Shown one piece after another: positions 888-20,144 of a stretch of 24,867 nucleotides of DNA (position 1 is the first letter of the stretch; each line of letters begins with the position of its first letter). The notes below the pieces were generated by a model. The model worked only from the letters and a program-made list of their open reading frames with translations, was not told where the DNA came from and ran no database searches. Location: assembly GCA_014189685.1 (NCBI GenBank), contig DVAB01000025.1, forward strand, positions 1 to 24,867, read 5' to 3'. The position numbers and the translations under genes are program-made. Source of the DNA: Candidatus Naiadarchaeum limnaeum (lineage in GTDB: Archaea; Undinarchaeota; Undinarchaeia; Undinarchaeales; Naiadarchaeaceae).

Positions 888-2375
888 ATGATATCTGACC
901 TCGTTGTTAATGAAGAGATAAAGAAATACGTTAGAAAACCACTTGGGAAAATAATCAGGGAATCGCAGCTTTCTGCTAATTTTAAAGGAAATGTTATTTG
1001 TGTTGGAGATAAAGTTACTTTGACATGCGCAAAGTTACAGCTAATGCCAAAAGTTGCAATTGTTGATTATAAAGTTATGCGCAAAAAGATTTCTGCAAAA
1101 GATAAAAGACAACTAAAAAAATACGGAACAATAAAACTGCGCGCGAAAAACAAAGCAGGCACTATTTCTCTGGAAGCTTGGAACAAAGTTAGAGAAGCTC
1201 TTGAATTTACAGGCGCAATTGTAAAAGTCGAGATAGACGGGGAGGAAGATTTGCTAACCCTAGCTGCAATCTTAAATGGAGATGTCGGAGATACAGTAAT
1301 CTACGGCCAGCCAGGAAAAGGAATTGTTGTTGTTCAAATAACAGAAAAAAAGAAACAGGAAATTGCTGATATGTTGATTCAGGAAAAAGCGCGTGAGTTT
1401 TTGAAAAAGTTCAAAGGCACGACAGTTATCGTTCATGATTCGGATGCGGATGGAATGAGTTCTGCAGTAATGTTCACGCATTATGTAGGAAAGAGAAAAA
1501 ACAAAGTTATCCAAAGAACAAGTGACGGCGCAACTATTTCACCACATTTAAAAGAGGAAATTACAGGGTTAAATGCGAACAATTTAATAATTTTAGATCT
1601 AGGCGGCGAAGCGAGAAACACGATTAAAGAATTGTCGCAAAGAATGAATGTTTTAATTATAGACCATCACAAAATGTTTGAGGATGATTTTGGAAAGGCG
1701 CTTTATCTGAATCCGCAATTTTTCAATGTTCCAGATGATTATACAAGCCCAACTTCTTTCTTGAGCTGGCAAATCTGCAGAAATATAGATTGGCTTGCGG
1801 CTGCAGGAATAATAGCAGATAAAGGATTTTTACCCGCGCAGGAATTTTTAAAAAAAGTCAAGAAAAAATACTCAAAAATTAATCTTAATTATTTAGTTGA
1901 TTTACTAAACGCAGCAGATGCAAAAGAAAAAACAAAGGAGGCTGTACAAATTTTATTAAAGTCAAAAAGCCCGCAGGATTTAATCAACAGCGAAATTGCG
2001 CGATGGGAGAAAGAAGTAAATGGGGAAATTAGTAGACTTGTTGAGGAACATAAACAAAAGGCACTCTTTATTGCTGGCGGAAAAGTAATTTTATATGAAG
2101 TAACACCAAAATTTTATTTGCGCGGCGAAATTGCAAATAAGATTCAGGAAATTTATCCAGATAAAATTGTTATAATAGGCGAAATAGAAAATGGGCACTA
2201 TGTAATGAGCTTCAGAACTGTAAAAGTGAATATTTCTTTTCCAGACTTAATTAAAAAGGCGATACAAACTCTAGAGGGCGCACACGGCGGCGGGCATGCA
2301 AAAGCAGCAGGCTGCAAAATACGCCTTGTAGACAAGGAGAAATTTTTAAGAAGGTTTATCGAGAATTTAAAATAA
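888..2375 (+). CDS. Fusion of DUF359 (GTP-dependent dephospho-CoA kinase domain) with DHH/DHHA1 phosphoesterase
   Basis: The protein has 495 residues and two parts. Residues 1-155 match the archaeal DUF359 family (COG1909): V39-G-D41-K-V-T, I58-V-D60-x-K62-x-x-R65, K89-A-G-T-I-S, then GEED 118-121 and IYGQPGKGIVVV 138-149. Characterised members phosphorylate dephospho-CoA with GTP in the last step of CoA synthesis. Residues 177-312 are a DHH domain with H183-D-S-D-A-D-G189, LDLG 236-239, D259-H-H261 and A310-D-K-G. Residues 464-478 carry the DHHA1 signature GAHGGGHAKAAG. RecJ, nanoRNase and GAN-type nucleases share this layout, so a nuclease or phosphodiesterase that uses Mn is likely. All metal-binding motifs look intact. 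I know of no characterised protein with both domains. The start ATG follows a TATA-like box by 26 bases. Confidence 0.85.
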   Translation: MISDLVVNEEIKKYVRKPLGKIIRESQLSANFKGNVICVGDKVTLTCAKLQLMPKVAIVDYKVMRKKISAKDKRQLKKYGTIKLRAKNKAGTISLEAWNKVREALEFTGAIVKVEIDGEEDLLTLAAILNGDVGDTVIYGQPGKGIVVVQITEKKKQEIADMLIQEKAREFLKKFKGTTVIVHDSDADGMSSAVMFTHYVGKRKNKVIQRTSDGATISPHLKEEITGLNANNLIILDLGGEARNTIKELSQRMNVLIIDHHKMFEDDFGKALYLNPQFFNVPDDYTSPTSFLSWQICRNIDWLAAAGIIADKGFLPAQEFLKKVKKKYSKINLNYLVDLLNAADAKEKTKEAVQILLKSKSPQDLINSEIARWEKEVNGEISRLVEEHKQKALFIAGGKVILYEVTPKFYLRGEIANKIQEIYPDKIVIIGEIENGHYVMSFRTVKVNISFPDLIKKAIQTLEGAHGGGHAKAAGCKIRLVDKEKFLRRFIENLK

Positions 2376-3139: not shown

Positions 3140-3173
3140 TAGCGGCATGACAACTAAAAAGAAGAGGAAAAGA

Positions 3174-4364
3174 ATGGGTAACTTTCAAAAAGGCATAAGA
3201 GAGGTTGCACAAGAAAATAGACCACCAGGTGGTGCTGGTTCTTTAAAGCCTTTAATATGGTTTTTAGGTAGAGAGGGTAGAATAAGCTTGCCGGAAGCAA
3301 AAGTCGAAGCTATCAGCCCGCTGGATGTTTTTTCAGGAGATGTAGCTGCTATACGATACTGGAAAGATAGTGGTGCAAAAGCAGAAATTGCTCTTTCTAG
3401 ATTAGCGAGCATCGCTATTGGTAAAGAGCTAGTAGGACTTATGCTCACAAAACAATATTCAAGCTTGAATTCTTTGTCAGCAATGCTACACAGACTAAAC
3501 GAAATTAATGATGTTGACAAGGCAAAAAGAGATAAGATTTTCAGAACAGCATTCAACTTATTACTAGGATATGAAATAGCAAAAAATGAAATTGAAGAGA
3601 ACTATTTTGCTACTCTCTATATGAGAGGATTTTTCCTTGGCTTAAGAGAGAGTTTTCTCGCAAAACAATATGCACAAATAGTTGGTAATCCGGCACTTGA
3701 AAAAAGCGGGGATCCAGATGATCTTAAAGATTATTTAACGAAGTTATTCGGCAGAAAAGTAGTTATTGGTAAGCTTGGGAATGTTAGTGCTGCAAAAGAA
3801 TTTTTAGAGGCACTTGCAGTTGCTGAGCTGGCAGGATCAGAAGCTGAAGCTGGACAGCTAGCAGCACCAGCTCATTTATGGAAGGATCGCGGCAGAGATG
3901 CTATTCCAAGATTACAGAGCTTTTTAAGAAATGGCGAAGATAAATATGTTGACAGAGGGAGTGGTATACCTATTATCACAGGAGAAGGTCTTAGATATTT
4001 ACTACGCAACTTGCTTTTCCGTGAAGGTGATGAAAAATTTAGATTTGGAACAGTAGATGCTTTAGGGATGCAATTTATAAAAATTGATGAGCTAAACGAT
4101 GTCAAAAAAGCACTCACAGATCCTGTATTTTTGAACAGCTTGAGAATATACCTAGGTTTAAAAGCATTGAGCCATGAGGTACTATCTTTAATTGCTGCGG
4201 CCCTAGGGGAATTTGATACTGGCTTGCAATTCTCTACATGGAGATTGAGAGTTAAATATGGAAACTACTTAGATATGTCGAAGTTTGTTAAAGAGACGCA
4301 TAATAGGGGTGGGGTATTCACCGCTGGGCACATGGAATACTTTGCCAAAAACAAAACAGTTTAA
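3174..4364 (+). CDS. Orphan soluble protein, mostly helical
   Basis: No family is recognised. The protein has about 396 residues from ATG 3174. An in-frame ATG at 3147 would add nine residues including a basic MTTKKKRKR run. I prefer 3174 because a Shine-Dalgarno-like gaagagg (3161-3167) sits just before it and the upstream TATA-like box is too close to 3147. It has no signal peptide or obvious TM segment. It is rich in Leu/Ala helices, with an acidic Ala/Glu segment (AELAGSEAEAGQLAA) and Arg/Lys patches. It follows the 2865 gene in the same direction and may be co-transcribed with it. Confidence 0.7.
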   Translation: MGNFQKGIREVAQENRPPGGAGSLKPLIWFLGREGRISLPEAKVEAISPLDVFSGDVAAIRYWKDSGAKAEIALSRLASIAIGKELVGLMLTKQYSSLNSLSAMLHRLNEINDVDKAKRDKIFRTAFNLLLGYEIAKNEIEENYFATLYMRGFFLGLRESFLAKQYAQIVGNPALEKSGDPDDLKDYLTKLFGRKVVIGKLGNVSAAKEFLEALAVAELAGSEAEAGQLAAPAHLWKDRGRDAIPRLQSFLRNGEDKYVDRGSGIPIITGEGLRYLLRNLLFREGDEKFRFGTVDALGMQFIKIDELNDVKKALTDPVFLNSLRIYLGLKALSHEVLSLIAAALGEFDTGLQFSTWRLRVKYGNYLDMSKFVKETHNRGGVFTAGHMEYFAKNKTV

Positions 4365-4372
4365 CTCCAAAA

Positions 4373-4383
4373 CCTTTTTATCC
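4373..4383 (+). promoter_or_regulatory. TATA-like box for the 4405 gene
   Basis: The sequence cctttttatcc lies about 27 bases before the ATG at 4405, directly after the upstream stop codon. It is T-rich, so it could also serve as a terminator for the preceding gene. Confidence 0.45.
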
Positions 4384-4404
4384 TAAATAAGCCTATTTTT
4401 ATCC

Positions 4405-5046
4405 ATGGCCTTCCAGCCCGCATTTTCAAGTAGCGATTATAGAACGTGTATAAATGGTTTAGCTGATTTGTCAAACAGATTTTTAGAGGCGAGCAGAAAT
4501 TTTAACCTGCGCTTTGTAACAGCGCCGCAAGTTCCAAGGCTTACAAGAGTTGTTCAATCGATAAAGGATTCAAACCTGCAGCAAGTAAAAGGCTTGTCCT
4601 CTCTTTTAACAAATTTAGACAGCGAATTAGACACTTTAGTGAAAAAATTCCAGCTTGTTCAAAGAAGCCATCAATTCGATCCGACCTTAAAAAATTTCTT
4701 GGGAGATTTTTCAAGGGATTCTGCGGACGCGTTTAGAAAATTAAGCGATTTTGTAGATGAATCAATTAAACTTGCAGATTCTGTTATAACTGTTTACGCA
4801 CAAATTGAAAGAGATAAAAAACCTGCAAAAACTTGGATAGGCACAATTCTTGCCCCAGAGACAACTTCAACAAAAGCAATGATGGCAAAGGCCAACGAGG
4901 CGCAAAAGGTTTTGGCAGAAGCGGAAAGCGTTTGCAAAGATGTAAGAAATATGTGCCAGCAGACAAGGAATGAGTTAGAATCGATTAAGAGTCTTGCAAT
5001 AAGAAACTTAATAAGGCGAACTCCTTATTCTTATTCGGAAATTTGA
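4405..5046 (+). CDS. Orphan all-helical coiled-coil-like protein
   Basis: The 213-residue soluble protein is almost entirely predicted helix. Heptad-like Leu/Ile/Val spacing is visible around residues 45-90 and 160-200, with many Gln, Asn and Lys. Four Cys are scattered and no metal-binding motif is seen. No family is recognised. The short C-terminal tail is Tyr/Ser-rich. It is followed 10 bases later by the endonuclease V-like gene in the same direction, so the two are probably one transcript. Confidence 0.7.
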   Translation: MAFQPAFSSSDYRTCINGLADLSNRFLEASRNFNLRFVTAPQVPRLTRVVQSIKDSNLQQVKGLSSLLTNLDSELDTLVKKFQLVQRSHQFDPTLKNFLGDFSRDSADAFRKLSDFVDESIKLADSVITVYAQIERDKKPAKTWIGTILAPETTSTKAMMAKANEAQKVLAEAESVCKDVRNMCQQTRNELESIKSLAIRNLIRRTPYSYSEI

Positions 5047-5056
5047 AGGTGGGAAT

Positions 5057-5719
5057 TTGGAAGAATTATTTCCGCAAAAACTTACATTAAAAGAGGCAAA
5101 TGAATTTCAGGACAAATTAGCTGCGCGTTTAATCCTTGAGGATGATTTAAATGATAGCATTGAAAAAATTGGAGCAGCAACAATGCATACGCGCGGGGAT
5201 TTTATAACAATTAGCGCTGCAATTTTTAAAACAGATTCTGATTTAAAAAAATTTGAAATAATTGATAAAAATATTGTTCGCGAAAAATCTCCTTTTCCGG
5301 CAGTTCCTGGTTTAGAGAGTTTTAGGGATGGTGAAATTTTAACAAGAATTCTGCGTGGCTTTTCAAAGCCGGATTTATTTTTTATTGAGGGGCATGGAGT
5401 AAATCATCCGCATAAACTGGGATTGGCGTCCCATGTTGGACTGGCTTTAGATTTGCCAACGATTGCAGTGAGCAGGGATTTTATCGCAGGCCGCATCCAG
5501 ACTGTTGATGGAAAGGATGCGATAGTAGAAAATGGGGAAGCGCGAGGAGCTATACTAAAAAGTGGCACATTAAAAATTTATGTTTCTCCAGGGCATAGAA
5601 TAAGCTGGCAAACAGCTTTTGAGCTTGCTAAAAAATGCACAAAATCAATTTACCCAGAGCCGTTAAAAATTGTTCAGCAAAATATGATTGAAGCAATAAA
5701 CTCAGCTGTAAAAACTTAA
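5057..5719 (+). CDS. Endonuclease V homologue with altered catalytic residues
   Basis: The 220-residue protein aligns along its length with E. coli Nfi: P84-G-L-E-S-F-R-D91, I110-E-G-H-G-V-N-H-P118, LGLASHVGLALDLPTIAVS and S177-P-G-H-R-I-S. Endonuclease V cuts DNA or RNA next to inosine using three acidic residues. Here the first Asp (IAGADV in E. coli) is Thr42 (IGAATM), the FRE Glu is Asp91, and the DGHG Asp is Glu111. The His in GHRxS (H180) is kept. So the fold is clear, but the chemistry is doubtful or changed. The start is TTG at 5057 with a Shine-Dalgarno-like ggtgg at 5049-5053. It follows the 4405 gene closely and converges on the transaldolase with a 2-base gap. Confidence 0.8.
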   Translation: MEELFPQKLTLKEANEFQDKLAARLILEDDLNDSIEKIGAATMHTRGDFITISAAIFKTDSDLKKFEIIDKNIVREKSPFPAVPGLESFRDGEILTRILRGFSKPDLFFIEGHGVNHPHKLGLASHVGLALDLPTIAVSRDFIAGRIQTVDGKDAIVENGEARGAILKSGTLKIYVSPGHRISWQTAFELAKKCTKSIYPEPLKIVQQNMIEAINSAVKT

Positions 5720-16842: not shown

Positions 16843-17007
16843 CTATTTCTTTGCAAACTCAGTATATCCACATTTTCCGCAGCTCTCTCTGTTAGAATGC
16901 TTTGCAAGAAAAATTCCAGGCCCACAGCGCGGGCAGTTTCTTAATTTCCGGACAATTTTCTCGCCCTGAACTAAAAACAGTTCACGCTTGTTAACTTTTT
17001 TAACCAT
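16843..17007 (-). CDS. rps27ae: 30S ribosomal protein S27ae
   Basis: This 54-residue protein has a basic start ([10 protein letters not shown]) and a zinc finger with C25-x-x-C28 and C43-x-x-C46 ([18 protein letters not shown]). This is the archaeal S27ae (eS31), a zinc-binding protein of the small ribosomal subunit head. It has the usual archaeal length without the ubiquitin fusion of eukaryotes. Its ATG overlaps the S24e stop (TAATG). It is the last gene of the cluster. Confidence 0.95.
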
Positions 17008-17318
17008 TATGTAGCCTTTGCCTCCTCTTTCTTTTCAGCTGCAGGAGCTTTTTCTTTTTTCTCTTTTGACTTTGGCTCTGTTTTTTGCAAATCTTCCAAA
17101 GTGTTGTAAACTTTTATATAAGCCTCTGCCCTTCGAACCCCAAAATATTGATGCGTTGTCTCAATAACAATCAAATTCTTATCAACATTTAGAAGTGCGG
17201 CCACTTTTCCTGCGATATCATCTGACTTTGGAGTTGCCCCATTATTATCTATTAGAACACGCAATTCTTTGCGGTTTAAAAGTTTATTTTCAATTTGTTT
17301 AGTTATCTTGACTTCCAT
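17007..17318 (-). CDS. rps24e: 30S ribosomal protein S24e
   Basis: The 103-residue protein starts [19 protein letters not shown] and contains the S24e core: [36 protein letters not shown] and VYNTLEDL. The C-terminal Lys/Glu/Ala-rich tail is normal for archaeal eS24. It overlaps the Spt4 stop and the S27ae start by one base each (TAATG both times), so all three are translationally coupled. Many archaea place a DUF359 gene between spt4 and rps24e; here there is no room for it. Confidence 0.95.
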
Positions 17319-17500
17319 TATTGCACGATTAAAGCGTACTCCCCTTTTTGTTTTATTGTGAGTTTTTTTGCAATCTCAGAATTTTCTGGATCAAAGATTA
17401 TTACAACCCCACTAAATCTGCCTGAGAGCTCTTCGCTTTTGCAAACTGGGCATATCGACTCTGATGTTATAAATCGACATTTTTTACAAGCTTTTCTCAT
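17318..17500 (-). CDS. spt4: Transcription elongation factor Spt4 (RpoE'')
   Basis: The 60-residue protein has the zinc ribbon C5-x-x-C8 ... C17-x-x-C20 and the core SGRFSGVVIIFDPENSEIA, with KGEYALIV at its end. Spt4 binds Spt5 and keeps RNA polymerase processive. Its ATG follows the RpoE' stop directly (TAG-ATG), and its own stop overlaps S24e. Confidence 0.95.
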   Translation of the reverse strand: MRKACKKCRFITSESICPVCKSEELSGRFSGVVIIFDPENSEIAKKLTIKQKGEYALIVQ

Positions 17501-18094
17501 CTATGCACTCTTCCTCTTTCTTCGTTTCTTTTTCCTTTCTCTGCCTTCTGCAACCGCTGCTTCCGGCGCCTCAAGCCACTCAAACTTCCCCAATCCGGGC
17601 TGGCGCATTGTTAATCCAATTTTGTTTTCCTTTGCTTTTTTCAAACTAATTGTTACTATTCTGGCGCGCACTTTATCACCTTCTTGAAGGGTTTTATTGC
17701 TCGCCTTTCCAACAAAGCGCGAACCTTTTGAATCATAGTTCAAAAAGTCATCGGCTATCTGTGAGACATGCACTAATCCATCAAGCGGCCCTAAACGAAT
17801 AAAAGCACCAAATTCGACTATTTCAATTACTTCCCCATCTATTACTTCCTGTAAATCCGGCTTGTAAACAAGTGCCTTAAAAACTGTTTCATAATAAGCA
17901 GCTCCATCTCCAGGAATAACTTTTCCAATTCCATCTGTTTTTGCATCTATGATTAGAACAATCGCACCAATATCACGATCAACTTTTCCTTCATATTTTT
18001 CTGATAAAATTTTTTTCAGCGTATCATCTAGTTTTCCGCCAAAATGTTCCGGCGGAACTCGTACTGTGTCATCAATTTCTATTATATGGTACAT
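17501..18094 (-). CDS. rpoE: RNA polymerase subunit Rpo7 (RpoE', Rpb7 homologue)
   Basis: The 197-residue protein has the N-terminal RNP-like domain (IDDTVRVPPEHFG, 7-19; IGAIVLIIDA) and a C-terminal S1 RNA-binding domain (GEVIEIVEFGAFIRLGPLDG, HVSQI). Together with Rpo4 it forms the polymerase stalk that aids open-complex formation and termination. A strongly basic tail (ERKKKRRKRKSA) ends it. A clear Shine-Dalgarno ggagg lies at 18101-18105, overlapping the stop codon of the pyrophosphatase gene, so the two are coupled. Confidence 0.95.
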   Translation of the reverse strand: MYHIIEIDDTVRVPPEHFGGKLDDTLKKILSEKYEGKVDRDIGAIVLIIDAKTDGIGKVIPGDGAAYYETVFKALVYKPDLQEVIDGEVIEIVEFGAFIRLGPLDGLVHVSQIADDFLNYDSKGSRFVGKASNKTLQEGDKVRARIVTISLKKAKENKIGLTMRQPGLGKFEWLEAPEAAVAEGRERKKKRRKRKSA

Positions 18095-18100
18095 TTTTCC

Positions 18101-18105
18101 TCCTT
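18101..18105 (-). promoter_or_regulatory. Shine-Dalgarno of rpoE inside the hppA stop region
   Basis: Minus-strand reading is TAAGGAGGAAAAATG. The ggagg overlaps the end of the pyrophosphatase gene and is six bases from the RpoE' start, so ribosomes ending on hppA can restart directly. Confidence 0.8.
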
Positions 18106-20098
18106 AAATCAAAGCGTTTGCAACTATTAATCCTATGAATAACAAACTAATCATATTTACAACTTTTATCAAAGGATTCAATGCTGGGCCAGCTGTATCT
18201 TTAAATGGATCTCCAACTGTGTCACCAACAACAGCCGCTTTATGAGTGTCGCTTCCCTTCCCACCAAGGTTTCCATCTTCTATATATTTCTTTGCATTGT
18301 CCCAAGCTGCGCCTCCAGATGTCATTTGAATTGCTAAAAGCAAACCAGAAATTATTGTCCCAACCAAAAGTGCACCCAAAGTTTTTACTCCAAGAAAAAT
18401 TCCAACCATTAAAGGAGCTAAAACTGCTAAAAGAACAGGAAGTGCCATTTTTTTCAGAGCTGCACTTGTAACAATTGAAACAGCTTTTGCATAATCAGGC
18501 TTTGCCTTGAATTTCATTATTCCAGGAATTTGTTTGAACTGCCTGCGAACCTCATTTACGACTTCAAAAGCAGTTTTTCCAACAGCAAGCATTAACATTG
18601 AGCTAAAAACAAAAGGCAAGAGTGCCCCAAGGAACAGTCCGACTAAAATTAATGGATCAGAAAGATCGAATGCGACTTGAACTCCGCGCTGTGAAAGCTC
18701 TTGTGTGTAAGAAGCAAATAAAACTAGAGCGGCTAAAGCTGCAGAGCCAATAGCATATCCTTTTGTAACTGCCTTTGTTGTATTTCCAACTGCATCCAAA
18801 GCATCTGTTACTCTGCGCACAGCAGAACTCAAATTAGACATCTCGGCAATTCCGCCTGCATTATCTGTTATCGGGCCATAGGAATCGATTGCGACAATAA
18901 TTCCTGTAAAGGACAGCATTGAAACAGCTGCGATTGCAATTCCATAAAGCCCTGCGAACCAATATGAAACTAAAATTCCAAAGCTAATTACTAAAACTGG
19001 CCAGAATGTGCTCTCCATCCCTACTGCTAATCCTGTTATTAGATTAGTTGCAGCTCCTGTTTGAGAAGCCTTTGCAATTTTTAAAACAGGCCTGAATTTT
19101 TTGCTTGTAAAATATTCAGTAATTACAATCATCGCAAATGTTACTAAAAATCCGATCAGAGCAGAGTAGAATAAATTAATCGGCGCTGAAACAAAATTTA
19201 CGAAATAATTTGTTATAACAAAAAACAAAATTATTGCGATTATTCCTGAAACAATCACTCCTTTGTAGAGAGCAAACATTATGTTTTTATTTGAGGGCAA
19301 TTGTATAAAAAATGTACCGACTACAGAAGCAATAATTGCTGCTGCGCCAAGCAAAAGTGGATAAACAACTGCTTCCTGCGCCCCATTAAAAAGCAAAAAT
19401 CCAAGAAGCATTGCACTTATCGCTGTTACAGCATAGGTTTCAAAAAGATCAGCAGCCATTCCTGCGCAATCCCCGACATTATCCCCGACATTATCAGCAA
19501 TTACCGCAGGATTTCTGGGATCATCCTCTGGAATTCCTTTTTCGATTTTTCCAACTAAATCTGCGCCAACATCTGCGGCCTTTGTATAAATTCCTCCGCC
19601 AACTCTTGCGAAAAGGGAAATTAAACTTGCACCAAATCCAAATCCTATAATTAAAAGTGGATCTCCAAACAACAAATAGAAAACAGAAACTCCTAACAAG
19701 GCAAGCCCTACAACAAACATTCCTGTAACTGCGCCGCCTTTGAATGCAACTGCTAAAGCTGCTTTTAAGCCCTTGCTCGCAGCTTGTGCAGTTCTAACAT
19801 TTGCGCGCACAGAGATTGACATTCCAATATATCCTGCAAGCGCGGATAAAAATGCGCCTGCTAAAAATCCAACTGCGGTTTGCCAGTTTAGAACAAAATA
19901 CAAAATAACTGCGATTATAACTGCAAAAATAGAAACAACTTGATACTGTTTGTTCAAGTAAGCCATCGCTCCTTCTTTAATCGCAGCAGCAATTGACTGC
20001 ATTTTTGGAGTGCCAGTATCCAGCTTTGATATTTCGAGAATTAGAAAAATTGCAAATCCAATAGCTAAGCCACTGGCTACAATTGGGAATGCTAACAT
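18104..20098 (-). CDS. hppA: Membrane proton-pumping pyrophosphatase, K+-independent type
   Basis: The protein has about 664 residues and many membrane helices. The substrate-binding loop is canonical: [32 protein letters not shown] and, near the end, [19 protein letters not shown]. It couples PPi hydrolysis to ion pumping. The segment [15 protein letters not shown] has Lys (residue 442) where K+-dependent enzymes have Ala, which marks the K+-independent H+-pumping subfamily. The start ATG 20098 has ggagg 11 bases before it. An in-frame TTG at 20131 would add 11 charged residues. It sits between the PIN gene and rpoE inside the conserved transcription/translation cluster. Confidence 0.94.
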
Positions 20099-20099
20099 T

Positions 20100-20144
20100 T
20101 TACTTTTTCCCTCCGCTGAAAATTTTCTCAACTAGTTCAGACAT
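20100..20144 (-). CDS. Possible 14-codon leader ORF before hppA
   Basis: A minus-strand frame opens at ATG 20144-20142, encodes [14 protein letters not shown] and stops with TAA one base before the hppA ATG. The TATA-like gtataaat (20164-20171) is centred about 24 bases before it, which would make this ATG the first codon of a leaderless mRNA. Its two Gly codons (GGA GGG) form the Shine-Dalgarno of hppA. This layout suggests that translating the short frame delivers ribosomes to hppA. It may also be chance, and a second A/T box at 20182-20195 would give a longer leader. Confidence 0.45.

Follow-up and report, generated by a model that had tools for sequence, protein, structure and literature searches.

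Organization of the locus

The window, by which we mean the whole stretch of 24,867 nucleotides of Candidatus Naiadarchaeum limnaeum DNA that was analysed, carries at 888–2375 (+) a gene with an ATG start for a 495-residue protein in which a DUF359 domain is joined to a DHH/DHHA1 phosphoesterase, as seen from its translation, its Pfam matches and four full-length orthologues. This is exactly the open reading frame and the domain content given by the first-pass annotation, and Pfam bears the assignment out, with matches to PF04019 (DUF359) on residues 43–163 (1.8e-31, 108.8 bits against a cut-off of 25), PF01368 (DHH) on residues 180–276 (1.8e-9, 38.3 bits against 28.1) and PF02272 (DHHA1) on residues 413–492 (4.5e-12, 46.7 bits against 25.9). 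The reading of residues 1–155 as DUF359 had hinged on the first of these matches.

The DUF359 domain spans residues 1–165 (888–1382, +), assigned by PF04019 and by similarity to 8jvc in sequence and fold, with the codons for its catalytic aspartates at 1008–1010 (D41), 1065–1067 (D60) and 1248–1250 (D121). In the AlphaFold2 model of the fusion protein (pLDDT 81.3, pTM 0.69) a helix comprising residues 153–173 (1344–1406, +) is predicted to span the junction of the kinase and DHH domains without a break. The DHH catalytic domain (Pfam span 1425–1715, +) contains motif I, HDSDADG (residues 183–189), D237 and the DHH triad (residues 259–261; 1662–1670), and motif IV, D311 (1818–1820), lies past the Pfam span. 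The DHHA1 substrate-binding domain (2124–2363, +) carries S441-x-R443 and a GGGH motif (residues 467–470; 2286–2297), of which the S, R and GGH are invariant in the five fusions known from the phylum. A separate DHH protein made from an internal start was considered, there being an ATG at codon 162, but methionine is absent from this position in the orthologues.

The gene that follows the fusion (2422–2793, +) encodes a predicted four-helix membrane protein of 123 residues with four hydrophobic stretches and no Pfam match. In all five genomes it adjoins the fusion, and it is 51–60% identical among them, compared with about 40% for the fusion; its model also has four helices, at low confidence (pLDDT 70.5). 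A TATA-like TTTATAAAT lies ∼25 nt upstream of its ATG, so that this gene may have its own TATA box and an operon with the fusion is uncertain. In the other families a MobA-like NTP transferase gene, with a Cys/His-rich, SWIM-like C-terminus, lies directly upstream of the fusion and overlaps it (L004:546–1382, +; equivalents in L005–L007); its place in the window is taken by an HGSNAT-type acetyltransferase gene (68–829, −). Between the membrane-protein gene and an endonuclease V gene (5057–5719), the window encodes at 3147–5046 (+) two proteins of 405 and 213 residues with no convincing Pfam match.

The ancestral position of the kinase gene is also recognizable in the window. In Bathyarchaeota, Hydrothermarchaeota and other archaea, the standalone DUF359 gene sits between spt4 and the gene for ribosomal protein S24e, after rpo7 and often the gene for the membrane pyrophosphatase HppA. 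The window retains this cluster at 17007–20131 (−), comprising HppA (18104–20131, −; PF03030, 5e-274), Rpo7 (RpoE1; 17501–18094, −; PF03876, 3.6e-16 and PF00575, 2.1e-13), Spt4 at the upstream edge of the vacated site (17318–17500, −; PF06093, 2.8e-14) and S24e (17007–17318, −; PF01282, 4.9e-22), with no DUF359 gene between the last two. The ATG of the S24e gene overlaps the spt4 stop codon, and DUF359 is therefore cleanly absent from its ancestral site, ∼15 kb from the fused copy. The simplest reading would be a relocation of the ancestral kinase gene together with its fusion.

Distribution and origin of the fusion

The fusion is present at full length in five of the six Undinarchaeota genomes, spanning three families, with relatives in Candidatus Undinarchaeales, UBA543, UBA55 and ARS1358. 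In each of the five, DUF359 lies within an open frame of 503–515 aa; in the sixth genome, which is 75% complete, DUF359 was not found. The genome to which the window belongs (G000; 0.98 Mb, 98% complete) has a single DUF359 match, which is the fusion. In a search of 394 archaeal genomes the five fusions gave E-values from 5.7e-252 to 1.1e-281 (3.8e-259 to 1.1e-281 for the four further genomes), and the next among the matches listed was a standalone DHH/DHHA1 protein at 3.4e-46; none of the matches listed, sorted by E-value, was a fusion from outside Undinarchaeota. A scan of GTDB r220 with short peptide patterns found the fusion in the same clade and nowhere else, and a similarly pattern-limited scan of viral contigs found no relative. 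DUF359 as such is present in 267 of the 394 archaeal genomes, and its standalone form is common.

Between families the fusions are 39–42% identical (40–41% to the window protein), with the two halves equally diverged (36–41% and 39–42% identity). The five form one group both in the DHH tree (bootstrap/SH-aLRT 100/100), which was built without the sequence of the pAp phosphatase MtPAPP, and in the DUF359 tree (85/86), where the fused domains are long branches, and their internal branching order is identical in the two trees. Both domains trace to a single ancient fusion event. Positions invariant across the five orthologues amount to 24%, and all 15 of the catalytic or substrate-motif positions checked are among them (D41, D60, D121, D186, D188, D237, D259, H260, H261, D311, S441, R443, G468, G469 and H470), which supports the earlier impression that both halves are catalytically intact. 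Because five of the six genomes carry the fusion at full length, with one origin and invariant catalytic residues, it is judged to be no product of chance or assembly; all the genomes are apparently metagenome-assembled, but a misassembly, frameshift or chance reading frame is hardly conceivable when the same junction is common to five separate genomes that are 39–42% identical in this protein between families.

The kinase half

Over residues 9–164 the complete N-terminal domain matches 8jvc, the GTP-dependent dephospho-CoA kinase of Thermococcus kodakarensis (TK1697), by sequence (2.1e-15), and its predicted fold superposes on the same structure with a Z-score of 22.6 (rmsd 2.0, 158 residues aligned). 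The score against the dephospho-CoA kinase equivalog NF041125 (2.8e-22, 79.1 bits) is below its cut-off of 300 bits; this model is specific to Thermococcales, and the score rules out membership of that subgroup only. D41, D60 and D121, which are invariant in the DUF359 alignments (20 sequences), align with D48, D67 and D125 of TK1697, and alanine mutants of these three residues impaired the growth of Thermococcus kodakarensis (PMC6650551). The likeness to TK1697 (arCOG04076/DUF359; 8jvc) thus covers the whole length of the domain, its three tested catalytic aspartates and its predicted fold, and it is likely on these grounds that the N-terminal half is active as a kinase. TK1697 differs in being a standalone single domain, and its genome encodes the complete CoA pathway, whereas here the domain has DHH/DHHA1 as its partner and the upstream enzymes searched for were not found.

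Fusions of DUF359 as such are already known. The first-pass annotation had described DUF359 proteins as single-domain, which needs correction, as it was PPAT–DUF359 fusions of uncultured archaea that led to the archaeal kinase being discovered (PMC6650551). We also found one in Gottesmanbacteria, a CPR bacterium (L032:5551–6513, +), where an archaeal-type dephospho-CoA kinase is thus encoded in a bacterium. These fusions resemble the present one in that DUF359 forms half of a two-domain CoA enzyme, but the partner there makes dephospho-CoA and is N-terminal in the Gottesmanbacteria example, whereas here it is a phosphoesterase and C-terminal. The further statement that no fusion with a DHH enzyme has been studied stands as far as the literature was searched, in which no DUF359–DHH fusion was found described, and it is the conserved joining to DHH/DHHA1 that appears to be new.

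CoA synthesis in Undinarchaeota

Neither DFP/CoaBC (PF04127) nor PPS (PF02006) was matched in any of the six Undinarchaeota genomes, with control genomes positive for both. PPAT was likewise not found in the 98%-complete genome of this organism, where the two PF01467 matches belong to other enzymes, namely an archaeal NMN adenylyltransferase (NF002243, 5.3e-48) and a 517-aa protein (L080) judged by its sequence to be an RfaE-like kinase/nucleotidyltransferase, and PF01467 had no match in three marine Undinarchaeota genomes. The absence of these CoA enzymes is drawn mainly from this near-complete genome, together with the agreement among six incomplete metagenome-assembled genomes. The fusion protein itself has no PF01467 match and so is not a bifunctional CoA synthase combining PPAT and kinase. 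An AcdA-type CoA ligase is present (3.1e-54), and acdA is also reported in the published description of the phylum (PMC7414124); this ligase indicates that CoA is in use by the cell.

No DFP/CoaBC match was obtained in 52 of the 267 DUF359-bearing archaea (G020, G051, G053, G063 and others), and keeping the final step of CoA synthesis in the absence of the middle ones seems to be widespread in archaea. Some DFP-less archaea have DUF359 in frames of 330–366 aa, which may be PPAT fusions. Undinarchaeota look more reduced than these other DFP-less archaea, PPAT also being missing as far as tested. Because DFP, PPS and PPAT were not found while AcdA is present, the fusion looks like the sole remaining enzyme of CoA biosynthesis, a salvage kinase for imported dephospho-CoA in a small archaeon that is probably host-dependent.

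The DHH half

The best NCBIfam matches of the DHH half are RecJ_archaeal (1e-17 to 1.9e-17) and then recJ (4.7e-17), and the C-terminal part of the fusion protein weakly matches the sequence of the Pyrococcus furiosus RecJ structure. However, it scores 63 bits on the RecJ_archaeal/GAN models (NF053576, NF053575) against a cut-off of 360, and no Pfam match to the CID domain (DHH_CID, PF21763) was found in the fusion, whereas the same library finds CID in the full archaeal RecJ of UBA543 (L063). The DHH half is therefore best described as a member of the RecJ clade but no archaeal RecJ equivalog. With a profile built from the family, the strongest hits are GAN and RecJ2 (about 1e-26), and the pAp phosphatase is hit at 9.2e-14 in one co-linear stretch; the NrnA oligoribonuclease/pAp phosphatase model NF053633 gave no match to the fusion up to an E-value of 1. 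All 21 relatives compared, whether fused or standalone, keep the metal ligands of DHH unchanged.

By fold, the best match of the model is the pAp phosphatase of Methanothermococcus thermolithotrophicus (8a8k; Z-score = 22.8, rmsd 3.2, 291 residues aligned of 316; Foldseek 2.9e-17), which is tied, with Z-scores within 1, with DNA-bound RecJ (5f55; 21.9, rmsd 3.4, 330 aligned); RecJ2 of Methanocaldococcus jannaschii (7ykv; 21.6, rmsd 3.0, 322 aligned) falls slightly outside this margin. Archaeal pAp phosphatases (MtPAPP, 8a8k; PyapApase) resemble the fusion in their metal ligands and in a compact DHH–linker–DHHA1 layout without CID or OB; such compact archaeal DHH enzymes cleave the 3′-phosphate of pAp (PMC8268124, PMC10322725). 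They differ in that identity is only ∼17%, that MtPAPP stands alone and has its role in sulfate assimilation, and that PyapApase has a lysine where the fusion keeps the histidine of GGGH (PMC8268124). Archaeal RecJ, GAN and RecJ2 share its sequence clade and the motifs DxDG, DHH, SxR and GGGH, but a true archaeal RecJ is a standalone protein of 430–480 aa with CID between DHH and DHHA1. The nearest relatives outside the phylum among the matches listed (3.4e-46) are standalone RecJ-like proteins of ∼360 aa (L038–L059), which have the same compact layout but lack DUF359, are uncharacterised and have varied gene neighbours. Small archaeal genomes, many of which have no DUF359, commonly encode such proteins, and some of the genes adjoin aminoacyl-tRNA-synthetase-like or fibrillarin-like genes. 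Clade membership thus points to RecJ, whereas in its compactness the layout is more like that of small-substrate enzymes, and we consider the chances even that the substrate of the DHH half is a small nucleotide.

The strongest alternative, which we regard as possible though doubtful, is that the DHH half works as a RecJ-like exonuclease with single-stranded DNA or RNA as its substrate, serving repair, replication or the breakdown of imported nucleic acid, with the kinase half making CoA separately or acting as a nucleotide-sensing or scaffold domain. It would account for the RecJ models being the best curated matches and for the fold tie, and the organism's own genome has no RecJ-type gene besides the fusion. 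RecJ homologues are thought to be essential in archaeal replication (PMC3307487), and for Undinarchaeota the uptake and breakdown of DNA have been proposed (PMC7414124). Against it stand the missing CID match and the low RecJ_archaeal score, and UBA543 (G002) carries the fusion together with its full archaeal RecJ, which also weakens the idea that the fusion is a plain replacement for that enzyme; a domain that was no more than a scaffold would have little reason to retain all three kinase aspartates. The same evidence bears on the plainer option of the first-pass annotation, repair of RNA or DNA by a protein that reuses a nucleotide-binding domain, which is weakened by the retained kinase residues, although the RecJ models, the nearest curated ones, still speak for it.

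Proposed function of the fusion

RecJ-, NrnA- and pApase-type DHH enzymes cut the bond between a phosphate and a nucleotide 3′-oxygen, and dephospho-CoA kinase places a phosphate on the adenosine 3′-oxygen of dephospho-CoA. Because the one adds and the others cut a phosphate at a 3′-oxygen, both halves of the fusion could serve one atom. We propose, with a probability of roughly 0.4, that the protein is a bifunctional salvage enzyme whose halves both act on the 3′-oxygen of 5′-phosphoadenosine. The N-terminal half would phosphorylate the 3′-OH of dephospho-CoA in a GTP-dependent reaction. As the upstream CoA enzymes tested are missing, the dephospho-CoA would come from outside, from a host, from neighbouring cells or from nucleic-acid material that the cell may import. 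The C-terminal half would act as a compact two-metal phosphoesterase, cutting the 3′-O–P bond of a small nucleotide with a 5′-phosphorylated adenosine and leaving a 3′-OH; candidate substrates are pAp, CoA itself and short RNA ends, possibly including dephospho-CoA-capped ones. The DHH half may thereby feed a 3′-OH substrate to the kinase, or balance or clean up its product. The bolder guess of the first-pass annotation, that the pair may act on CoA-type or capped molecules or that the DHH half may remove a nucleotide product, is strengthened by the failure to find upstream enzymes and by the compact form of the DHH half, which has a pAp 3′-phosphatase among its structural matches.

Several observations count against the proposed salvage enzyme. 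The pAp phosphatase match is no better than that of RecJ, and among curated sequence models RecJ nucleases come closest. The only other PF01368 match in the genome, a protein with weak similarity to NrnA (L002; NF053633, 1.7e-6), could do the pAp or nanoRNA work alone. A kinase and an opposing phosphatase in one polypeptide would need regulation to avoid waste. We had also considered pAp from ACP-type phosphopantetheinyl transfer as the DHH target, but no ACPS match was found in the six Undinarchaeota genomes, and pAp from this source is therefore no obvious load.

Alternatively, the two activities may be independent and merely joined at the gene level, for co-expression, stability or genome compaction, with unrelated substrates. 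The genomes are small, and a DUF359 gene that had left its ancestral cluster could have met a neighbouring gene by chance. This seems rather unlikely, as the fusion has been kept down to ∼40% identity in three families with no split version seen, and the predicted helix is continuous between the domains, although fusion alone is no proof of coupling. Less likely still, the DUF359 half may have changed its substrate to the 3′-OH of another 5′-phosphoadenosine compound or of an RNA end, with the DHH half reversing the reaction. The missing upstream enzymes and the long branches of the fused DUF359 domains would fit such a change; however, AcdA points to CoA use in the cell, and the fused domains retain the residues that are conserved throughout the 20 aligned DUF359 sequences.

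A more specific form of the salvage proposal involves capped RNA. RNA with dephospho-CoA caps is known from bacteria; to our knowledge, CoA-capped RNA has not been reported in archaea. It is conceivable, but improbable, that the substrates trimmed by the DHH half are short RNA or nucleotide ends, among them dephospho-CoA-capped RNA acquired from a host or the environment, and that the freed dephospho-CoA is converted to CoA by the kinase within the same molecule. If true, a lineage without upstream CoA enzymes would meet its need for CoA from nucleic-acid debris.

For the salvage enzyme proposed here, it is the pathway context that makes the joining of DUF359 to DHH informative, all other CoA-synthesis enzymes tested being missing in the phylum. 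The fusion offers a testable clue to the CoA supply of a reduced, partner-dependent archaeon that needs CoA but is apparently unable to build it. It suggests that a kinase and a DHH phosphoesterase share a target, the adenosine 3′-oxygen, and thereby hints at what the compact, uncharacterised RecJ-like proteins common in small archaeal genomes may do.
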